Source: a virus
Virus record (IMG/VR): IMGVR_UViG_3300041407_000052
Location: 1 to 28,347 of that record
Length of the DNA: 28,347 nucleotides
Reading direction: 5' to 3' (one strand)
Position numbers and translations under genes: made by a program. Each line of letters starts with the position of its first letter. Position 1 is the stretch's first letter. This document shows, in pieces, positions 17,037 to 27,570 of the stretch. The notes beneath the pieces are model-generated. The model saw only the letters and a program-made list of their open reading frames with translations, had not been told where the DNA came from and made no database searches.

Positions 17037-17239
17037 TGACTGATGTACAACGATTTGCACAATCATCATACAGCAATGAACTGTATCCAGCATCAGGCAG
17101 TGACGCACATTACATGTTCTACAAAGATCATACTGTCATTGTCAGCCTGTTACGTGAGCAACTAGCTTGGATGGAAAGACAGTTGACGTTAAGTAACACA
17201 CTTCTCACACAAGCATTGACAACCAATCAGCCTCGCTAA
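17036..17239 (+). CDS. Hypothetical 67-aa protein, last gene of the operon
   Basis: TGATG coupling sets the start at 17036. The C-terminal half is one long amphipathic helix (VIVSLLREQLAWMERQLTLS), coiled-coil-like. Its stop codon lies in the loop of the terminator. Confidence 0.65.
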   Translation: MTDVQRFAQSSYSNELYPASGSDAHYMFYKDHTVIVSLLREQLAWMERQLTLSNTLLTQALTTNQPR

Positions 17240-17255
17240 CGCGGGGTTTTCTTTT
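17231..17255 (+). terminator. Rho-independent terminator of the rightward operon
   Basis: Stem CCTCGC/GCGGGG (17231-17246) with a TAAC loop that holds the last gene's stop codon, followed by TTTTCTTTT. There is no T-tract on the minus strand, so it should not stop leftward transcripts. Confidence 0.85.
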
Positions 17256-17454
17256 ACCCTGAATTTCATTTTCCCCTATTTTGACTTCCCTGATTTACAC
17301 TTTTCCCTGTAAATCCAGTTCCTGAAATCCCGTCTTGTTAGTTATTCAACTGTCGGTAAATCCCTATTCGTTTAACGGAAGTAGCTCTAATGGGTTTAAC
17401 GCCCCGGACTTCAGGCAGCTACCGCCCGTCGGTATAATTCTAAAATCCCTAGAG
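17256..17454. other. Gene-free segment: GGA-rich on minus strand, then a branched fold
   Basis: No gene seen. On the minus strand 17256-17334 has six GGA triplets, one (GGGAAAAG) in the loop of an 8-bp stem (GATTTACA/TGTAAATC, 17292-17315). Further right, GTAGCT (17381-17386) can pair with AGCTAC (17417-17422) around a small GGG/CCC hairpin, suggesting a branched RNA fold. Confidence 0.45.
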
Positions 17455-17471
17455 TTGGCATAAACCTTGCT
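17455..17471 (+). promoter_or_regulatory. Candidate sigma54 (RpoN) promoter
   Basis: TTGGCATAAACCTTGCT has the -24 GG and -12 GC elements exactly ten bases apart and matches most of the TTGGCACG-N4-TTGCW consensus. It would read rightward into the hairpin array. Only about seven positions are strongly fixed, so chance is a real possibility. Confidence 0.35.
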
Positions 17472-17479
17472 AAGTGATT

Positions 17480-18237
17480 CGGTTGATCACCATATGTGAA
17501 TGATTATCATTCAATGTCATTTAACATAATACCTATTACACGCACAGCTGCATCCCCTCCCTTGGTATGCACCGGGAAGGTATTGTCTATCGATGGGTTG
17601 GGTATGAGTGGTTGTCTCTATCTGGCTGCATTGCACAGCCTTACCACAATGTTTCACTATACGCCCATGTGGGCAGAATGTACACCTTTTATTCATTTAT
17701 TTGTGCAGAATGCACGTATTGTTGAATGATAATGATTATTATTTACCTTGATAAATCAAGGGTATTTTATACTCTATCCCATATAATGGGATGATAGTGA
17801 GTGTGGGATGCTTAGATCATTGTCCCAATGTTCAGCATACCCAAGAATAGTAATATTCAGTGAATAGTCAATATTATGTCGTTATTACGACATGTACTGT
17901 CAATGTTATGGCTTGTAAGCCATGATCTATAAGGCTTTGAGAGAAGCGGTATATGATGTGCTATGCACATGGTAGGGGTGCTGCACTGCTATGCAGTGAG
18001 TGGTACTGTAGGAGGTTACAGAGGGTATACTACCGTATACTAAGGAAGAGAACAGGGGTTACTACCCTGTTTCTATATCTGATATGTACGCCTGTTATGT
18101 ATACATAACAATAGGTAATTCTATAACGTTATACGTTATAATAGTATTCTTTAATACATACTCTTTGTTCTTGTGGGGTTTATCCCCACTCTTTCCTGTC
18201 TCTCTAATACCTATTCACCCGTTACTACGGGTGGACA
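17480..18237 (-). ncRNA. Tandem hairpin array, possible large structured non-coding RNA
   Basis: About 20 short inverted repeats follow one another with little spacer. Examples: 17497-17513, 17624-17640, 17663-17674, 17703-17715, 17746-17761, 17772-17801, 17805-17842, 17851-17876, 17876-17893, 17908-17923, 17956-17970, 17984-17998, 18006-18021, 18025-18040, 18051-18071, 18093-18110, 18123-18139, 18173-18189 and 18216-18233. Most stems are 5-8 bp and perfect, with 3-6-base loops. Stem sequences differ, so these are not copies of one repeat. A strong minus-strand promoter at 18244-18273 would place hairpin 18216-18233 at the 5' end of a leftward RNA. There is no terminator on the minus strand, so the 3' end is unknown. 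A replication or packaging site is the main alternative. Confidence 0.55.
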
Positions 18238-18243
18238 TAGGGC

Positions 18244-18273
18244 ATTATAATAAGAAAATGCTGTTTATGTCAA
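18244..18273 (-). promoter_or_regulatory. Strong sigma70-type promoter reading into the hairpin array
   Basis: On the minus strand: perfect -35 TTGACA (18268-18273), 18-bp spacer, perfect -10 TATAAT (18244-18249). No gene lies downstream, only the hairpin array. Confidence 0.7.
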
Positions 18274-18310
18274 TACAGTATGGTTAAAGTACGTTTAAAT
18301 AGGTTGATTC

Positions 18311-18375
18311 TGCTAACAATCTGTGATAATCGGGTACATCATGCTAACAACTGATGATAATGAGAATAATTATTG
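18311..18375. repeat. Short direct repeat and Fur-box-like sequence
   Basis: TGCTAACAA.CTG.TGATAAT occurs twice, about 32 bases apart (near 18311 and 18342). The second copy runs into GATAATGAGAATAATTATTG (18356-18375), which closely resembles a Fur box. No gene is present. Confidence 0.4.
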
Positions 18376-18385
18376 CTTGCATGAG

Positions 18386-18404
18386 AAAGCCCCTTTCGGG
18401 GCTT
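18386..18404 (-). terminator. Bidirectional-type terminator of the leftmost minus-strand gene
   Basis: AAGCCCC/GGGGCTT stem with TTTC loop. On the minus strand it is followed by a modest T-run (TTTCTC). It lies directly beyond the parS site at 18406 and ends the 18423-18632 unit. Confidence 0.75.
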
Positions 18405-18405
18405 G

Positions 18406-18421
18406 TGTTTCACGTGGAACA
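18406..18421. promoter_or_regulatory. parS: parS-like ParB-binding site 1
   Basis: TGTTTCACGTGGAACA is the bacterial chromosomal parS sequence with one asymmetric base (palindrome form TGTTTCACGTGAAACA). ParB loads here as a CTP-dependent clamp and spreads. It lies between a stop codon (18423) and a terminator. Confidence 0.85.
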
Positions 18422-18422
18422 A

Positions 18423-18632
18423 TTAGAAAGGGTTTCCCCACTCTGCAATAACATCAGCATTGGCACGTTCGAAGCATTCAGGCGTGAAACCTTTACCACC
18501 CAACTGCTTAGCCCAATAGTCAAGGCGTTTGCTACGGAATGCAGCCACTTTCATTCCTGTACTAATCGAACCATAGCCTTTCGGTGGATTGCTTTGACTT
18601 GCACAGTGTGACATCAGATTGGAAGATTTCAT
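18423..18632 (-). CDS. Hypothetical 69-aa protein
   Basis: AGGAG precedes the ATG. Sequence: Ser/Gly-rich start (SHCASQSNPPKGYGSISTG) then a basic segment (AAFRSKRLDYWAKQLGGKG). It has its own promoter at 18673-18701. No family recognised. Confidence 0.7.
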   Translation of the reverse strand: MKSSNLMSHCASQSNPPKGYGSISTGMKVAAFRSKRLDYWAKQLGGKGFTPECFERANADVIAEWGNPF

Positions 18633-20213: not shown

Positions 20214-20229
20214 TGTTTCACGTGAAACA
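20214..20229. promoter_or_regulatory. parS: parS site 2, perfect palindrome
   Basis: TGTTTCACGTGAAACA, identical to the canonical 16-bp ParB recognition palindrome. It lies between the stop of the 20233-20430 gene and the start of the 19997-20203 gene, overlapping no likely coding sequence. Confidence 0.92.
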
Positions 20230-22284: not shown

Positions 22285-22300
22285 TGTTTCACGTGGAACA
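22285..22300. promoter_or_regulatory. parS: parS-like ParB-binding site 3
   Basis: TGTTTCACGTGGAACA, identical to site 1. It sits immediately after the stop codon (22301-22303) of a small gene and before a terminator, the same placement as site 1. Confidence 0.85.
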
Positions 22301-27542: not shown

Positions 27543-27570
27543 ATTCTACAGCAATGCATCAGAGTGTCAA
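27543..27570 (-). promoter_or_regulatory. Early promoter of the 27497-26997 unit
   Basis: -35 TTGACA (27565-27570), 16-bp spacer, -10 TAGAAT (27543-27548), AAAATAATTG upstream. The spacer differs from the sister promoters. Confidence 0.8.

Follow-up and report, generated by a model that had tools for sequence, protein, structure and literature searches.

Hairpin array between converging gene blocks

The stretch of DNA analysed here (the window) comprises positions 1-28,347 of an IMG/VR virus record that is 104,392 bp long. Its terminase is 78% identical to that of Pseudomonas phage phiPMW (Plaisancevirus), for which the published description gives a distant relation to the FelixO1 group (PMC5587285), and 69% identical to that of phage SYP. 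Plus-strand and minus-strand gene blocks converge on the locus and both end there: the plus-strand block with a terminator-like stem at 17229-17248 (plus strand), the minus-strand block with a stop at 18423 and a terminator-like stem, AAGCCCC-N4-GGGGCTT, at 18387-18404 (minus strand), upstream of the array promoter. Between them lies an array of small hairpins at 17480-18237, a predicted non-coding RNA read leftwards from the minus strand, with a putative start near 18237 as judged from the position of the -10 box.

The interval 17480-18273 is the hairpin-densest 800 bp of the genome. When the whole 104,392-bp record was scanned in 800-bp intervals for perfect hairpins (stem of at least 6, loop of 3-8), coverage was 28% at the array, against a genome mean of 3.6% (sd 3.6%). 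Perfect stems of 6 bp or more number 13 in the array, compared with ~0.9 in mononucleotide shuffles; among ten arrays compared, nine have 10-17 such hairpins and M1 has 5, where 0.8-1.5 are expected. With stems of at least 5 bp, 19 non-overlapping hairpins are found in 724 nt. The initial annotation was correct in the coordinates of the array, its number of hairpins, the diversity of their stems and the presence of a promoter. Its statement that almost every base belongs to a hairpin holds for a dense array but is overstated as to every base, because perfect hairpins of at least 5 bp cover, loops included, 306/724 nt (42%), the remainder being linker. The folding z of the whole region is -5.8 on the minus strand and -5.4 on the plus strand.

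Numbered from the promoter and given on the minus strand, hairpin 1 (18216-18233) is CACCCGT-AGTA-ACGGGTG, whose loop is kept and whose stem is replaced in relatives (CTGTGCT-AGTA-AGCACAG, CTGTGGT-AGTA-ACCACAG, CTCCCGT-ATTA-ACGGGAG and CGCCGGT-AGCT-ACCGGCG). It is followed by GTGGGG-ATAAA-CCCCAC (hairpin 2, 18173-18189), TATAACGT-ATA-ACGTTATA (hairpin 3, 18122-18140), TGTTATG-TATA-CATAACA (hairpin 4, 18093-18110) and AACAGGG-N7-CCCTGTT (hairpin 5, 18051-18071), the last having the most conserved stem (helix 4 of the alignment, 100% paired). Next come GTATAC-GGTA-GTATAC (hairpin 6, 18025-18040), CACTGC-ATA-GCAGTG (hairpin 7, 17984-17998), ATGTGC-ATA-GCACAT (hairpin 8, 17956-17970; the ATA loop is constant while the stems covary), ATGGCT-TACA-AGCCAT (hairpin 9, 17908-17923) and ATGTCGT-AATA-ACGACAT (hairpin 10, 17876-17893). 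Hairpin 11, ATCCCAT-TAT-ATGGGAT (17776-17792), lies in a slot that in G003, G007 and SYP is taken by a parS-like site, and hairpin 12 is CCTTGA-TTTA-TCAAGG (17746-17761). At the left edge stands a Fur-box-like palindrome without assigned strand, TGAATGA-TTA-TCATTCA (17497-17513). Fur-box-like palindromes with 14-16/19 matches are found at the array edges (17496-17514, 17722-17746 and 18356-18374 of the window); Fur boxes there were rejected, since the genome has similar palindromes at a few other places (G000 29088, 24060 and 95704).

When phage records were searched by plain nucleotide comparison, phiPto-bp6g was the sole match, and further relatives were traced through terminase, ligase and DNA matches; the nearest, G001, is 94% identical in DNA. 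Arrays with a hairpin density far above their own background are present in G001, phiPto-bp6g, G003, G004, G007, SYP, G002 and phiPMW, and G005, G008, G009, G011, G013 and G018 likewise have regions dense in hairpins. At least 14 related phages, including phiPMW, phiPto-bp6g, SYP and IMG/VR contigs, carry a dense array, which is weak or absent in M1, G014, G020 and the parts examined of G006 and G010. In most aligned arrays the order of the hairpins is kept, as is the distance of ~712-763 bp between the promoter and a left anchor (TTTAACATAAT). A non-coding stretch of ~750 bases with ~20 small hairpins is kept by a family of ~100-kb Pseudomonas-type phages; no mention of it was found in the accessible text of the phiPMW paper.

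Several conventional identities for the region were considered and rejected. No conserved ORF is found: across 12 arrays the longest ORFs measure 45-85 aa and lie at unrelated positions, which speaks against a coding region. The window contains no tRNA, so that tRNA remnants are excluded, and direct repeats are too few, short and imperfect for a direct-repeat or CRISPR-like array. A host-derived element was discounted because an array motif with 19 specified bases has 0 matches in a bacterial and archaeal genome collection of 84,980 species. No Rfam family matches the window at gathering thresholds, and below threshold there are only chance-level matches to unrelated families (E up to 5); a known RNA family was rejected on this basis. 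The GOLLD and ROOL covariance models likewise gave no hit at the gathering score.

Conservation and covariation of the stems

Plain MAFFT, which is blind to structure, was used to place 13 window hairpins on five other phages, with the expectation taken from shuffled segments; a perfect stem of at least 5 bp is present at 56/65 places, against 6.5 expected. A separate test took 12 helices predicted by RNAalifold, with 75 pairs in all; pairing holds in 92.1% of cells, compared with 79.6% after shuffling, a percentage that leans towards structure because RNAalifold used the same alignment; the mapping test is free of that bias. Changes on both sides occur in 34/75 of these pairs, a number reached in 0/500 shuffles (16.5 +/- 2.5), and in a slid control, where the partner was moved by 1-3 columns, only 3-11 pairs have both-side changes. 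Compared with G001, stems of at least 6 bp carry 0/158 substitutions and linkers 45/520 (Fisher p = 5e-6).

The locus thus combines a conserved non-coding position with a covarying secondary structure, one general mark of a large phage non-coding RNA. The proposal that selection acts on structure rather than sequence is supported by the compensated pairs and by the conservation of stems between near relatives, where a loss of hairpins would have spoken against it. RNAalifold returns local hairpins and a sole long-range helix (columns 62-70 with 891-899); the latter was rejected as RNA, as it includes the -10 box, which is untranscribed, and so it would not be part of the transcript.

Promoter-like elements and parS-type sites

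At 18244-18273, on the minus strand, lies a sigma70 promoter, TTGACA-N18-TATAAT (12/12), followed by a GC-rich GCCCTA. In the window, G001, phiPto-bp6g, G003, G004, G007 and SYP, hairpin 1 is closely preceded by a promoter with the 18-nt spacer, and weaker variants in phiPMW, G008, G009 and G018 bring the total to 11 phages; in most of them GCYCT or a similar sequence directly follows the -10 box. Promoters of stable RNAs typically have a GC-rich discriminator. A strong minus-strand promoter with no gene behind it had been described from the sequence, and this description stands, since no conserved ORF lies downstream. Upstream of the promoter are two 29-bp direct repeats with 31-bp spacing (18302-18361, minus strand), with related sequence in phiPto-bp6g. 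A different promoter-like sequence, TTGACA-N16-TAGAAT, recurs in the minus-strand gene block at 27570, 24720 and 23919 of the window (minus strand) and in relatives; such sites are possibly a phage-wide promoter type, unlike the array promoter with its 18-nt spacer.

Strand-specific signs modestly favour the minus strand. Linkers are G-poor on this strand in 11/12 arrays, and loops are A-rich. One-sided stem changes read on the promoter strand amount to 45 G-U against 18 A-C when summed over six references, which are not independent, and an earlier count of single-mismatch stems gave 17 G-U and 22 A-C. The folding z is lower on the minus strand in 9/12 arrays, the window being an exception (plus strand -6.9, minus strand -6.3 in the 12-array comparison). 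There are few G-U pairs in the conserved stems, and their triloops are short and symmetric; DNA hairpins would share both features. A search for an intrinsic terminator at the left (3') end gave none in nine relatives.

The left end of the array is marked by a conserved anchor, TTTAACATAATACC (17520-17533, plus strand), whose first 11 bases are exact in phiPto-bp6g, G003, G004, G007, G002, SYP, phiPMW, M1, G009 and G011. Farther left, a sigma54-like motif, TTGGCA-N6-TTGCT (GG-N10-GC; 17455-17471, plus strand), points into the array. Counting TTGGCA-N6-[TA]TGCT or a one-base variant, it occupies the same strand and place in eight phages (the window, G001, phiPto-bp6g, G003, G004, G007, phiPMW and G009), and these show, at the level of sequence, the GG-N10-GC spacing in a TTGGCAC/TTGCW context expected of a sigma54 promoter; TTGGCA-N6-[TA]TGCT has a single match in the 104-kb record, the one at 17455-17471. 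The array is thus flanked by two conserved promoter-like elements, this motif and the sigma70 promoter, both pointing into it. A second conserved element, GGGTTTAACGCCCC (17392-17405, plus strand), is also found in G003, G007, G002 and phiPMW. On the minus strand, 17250-17480 contains several AGGGA-type repeats and a conserved element, GGGGCGTTAAACCC; this segment is a possible protein-binding or 3'-end region.

Three exact GTTNCACGTGNAAC palindromes, the sequence pattern of parS, lie within 4 kb: GTTTCACGTGGAAC at 18407-18420 (without strand), GTTTCACGTGAAAC at 20215-20228 and GTTTCACGTGGAAC again at 22286-22299; the 104-kb record has none besides these, and relatives show similar clustering. 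In P. aeruginosa, parS2/3 reads TGTTCCACGTGGAACA (PMC4368675), and the phage sites match this sequence or close versions of it. Besides the window, ten related records have 1-5 parS-type sites each, mostly in the array or within several kb of it (inside it in G003, G007, SYP and G002), and a reversed control pattern gave 0 in 29 records. The motif is nevertheless common in viral contigs generally (at least 120 stretches). No ParB_N domain was detected in nine of these phages, although the same search was positive in 11/14 control genomes. Compared with the chromosomal ParABS system of Pseudomonas, the sites thus lie on phage DNA without a detectable ParB, and known parS loci are without hairpins. 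Array and sites do not always coincide: phiPMW has only degenerate parS sites, and G009 and G011 have none, yet all three keep arrays, whereas G010 has parS sites and few hairpins. In the latter, a 44-bp perfect palindrome, ACAGGAAGCGTAAAGGTTCCACGTGGAACCTTTACGCTTCCTGT, is centred on a parS core (C1, 94605-94648), with few hairpins nearby. In the SYP record, an exact direct repeat of 351 bp at the termini falls within the hairpin array; this repeat may be a physical genome end or an assembly overlap. A replication origin, raised in the initial annotation, gains no support and was rejected: cumulative GC skew has its maximum, not its minimum, near the array, a maximum that gene orientation alone predicts. 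Both the parS-type sites in or beside the array of phages without a detected ParB domain and the conserved sigma54-like motif opposite the sigma70 promoter are new observations.

A candidate large phage RNA and its alternatives

We interpret the array as a previously undescribed structured non-coding RNA gene of ~720 nt, read leftwards, which would be transcribed from the sigma70 promoter, fold into a string of hairpins and bind protein; we put the probability of this reading at roughly 0.6. The suggestion of a new large structured phage RNA made in the initial annotation is strengthened by the covariation, the conservation of stems and promoter, and the lack of an Rfam match, and the array is probably a large phage RNA not described before. 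We infer the transcription, strand, length, timing and abundance of this RNA from sequence. In the proposed mechanism, a strong promoter of the stable-RNA sigma70 type on the minus strand would drive a non-coding transcript of ~720 nt, which a terminator-like stem would insulate from the minus-strand gene block. Unmodified host RNA polymerase would make the transcript early in infection, and it would fold while being made into ~20 short Watson-Crick hairpins on G-poor linkers. Selection would preserve the fold and many of the loops (AGUA, AUA, AUAAA), stem letters drifting as compensated pairs, and the abundant RNA would bind one or more proteins through the kept loops, as a scaffold or a sponge. 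Such binding is the likeliest job that we can propose for the array RNA, but as a specific role it is tentative. A decoy for host RNases or RNA-binding proteins, suggested in the initial annotation, is a hypothetical role. An RsmA sponge of the RsmY/Z type was rejected: repeated GGA in loops, the mark of RsmA/CsrA sponges, is confined to a single window hairpin, CATTG-GGA-CAATG (minus strand), and an RsmY match in Rfam is far below the gathering score and outside the array.

One competing reading concerns the strand. A functional RNA could be made from the plus strand, running from the sigma54-like motif at 17455-17471 to the stem at 18387-18404, which could end a rightward transcript, or from both strands as a sense-antisense pair or collision zone. 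The motif's constant place and strand in eight phages, its uniqueness in the 104-kb record and the closeness of the G009 version to the sigma54 consensus, as generally known, speak for this reading, and a transcription-collision buffer, as once suggested for the locus, is compatible with the setting insofar as the motif faces the sigma70 promoter. The motif is, however, missing in G002, G008, G011, G018 and M1, SYP has it only elsewhere, and the G-poor linkers, A-rich loops and G-U counts favour the minus strand; we consider a plus-strand or two-strand RNA unlikely.

Less likely still, in our view, is that the array acts as DNA, its hairpins mattering as DNA structure or protein sites. It would then be a region of extruded hairpins or of nucleoprotein that serves segregation, replication or the ends used in packaging, with host ParB loading at parS. 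The exact parS-type sites that most array-bearing members have within or close to the array, the clean reversed control, the failure to find ParB_N in nine phages, the position of the SYP terminal repeat and the almost entirely perfect Watson-Crick pairing of the stems speak for this reading, but the discordance of sites and arrays in phiPMW, G009, G011 and G010, the frequency of the motif in viral contigs and the chance that the SYP repeat is an assembly overlap weaken it, and it leaves the conserved sigma70 promoter with its GC-rich start unexplained. A neutral origin is the least probable. Template-switch (quasipalindrome) correction would, with no selection acting, yield double changes as well as stems of perfect Watson-Crick pairing, and could in principle keep creating inverted repeats in a non-coding gap; it was rejected, and is largely refuted, by stems that are frozen against G001 while linkers vary, by the hairpin order and loops kept across phages, and by the conserved promoter and anchors.

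As a candidate RNA, the array can be compared with GOLLD and ROOL, likewise large structured RNAs in many phage genomes, which are characterized by a multi-helix, long-range fold that forms homo-oligomers. The array is instead predicted to be a series of local hairpins, for which no long-range helix within the transcript is supported, and it has no tRNA genes next to it, the window containing none. The closest functional precedent is an ~800-nt non-coding RNA of phage ICP1, the most abundant ICP1 transcript, made from an ORF-less gap of ~1 kb; in the accessible part of that report its authors compare it in length with GOLLD and ROOL, give no function and do not describe a hairpin-array architecture (mSystems 2020, PMC7567579). 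The likeness is one of size and ORF-less gap, and the ICP1 RNA serves as a precedent rather than a demonstrated relative. The virulent Pseudomonas phage PAK_P3, from the wider PAK_P1/FelixO1-related group, also has non-coding RNAs, sRNA1 and sRNA2 (PMC4933390), but these two are ~100 nt each and lie in short intergenic regions, unlike the array, and the likeness is by kind alone.

There are few large phage RNAs, and for none of them is the function settled; on its sequence we rate the array as a candidate large phage non-coding RNA with an unusual architecture. Cultured representatives exist in phiPMW (P. putida), SYP (P. plecoglossicida) and phiPto-bp6g (P. tolaasii), and with these phages, the strong covariation and a defined promoter, expression and deletion are therefore directly testable. 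It is also conceivable, although more doubtful than the protein-binding role, that the locus is a composite, in which a beads-on-a-string hairpin RNA between facing sigma70 and sigma54-like promoters is coupled with host-type parS sites; if so, the phage would make an abundant structured RNA and take over or titrate host ParB in one place. Through the parS-type and sigma54-like sites, these phages may be linked to the chromosome-segregation and RpoN systems of their hosts, a connection that can be tested.
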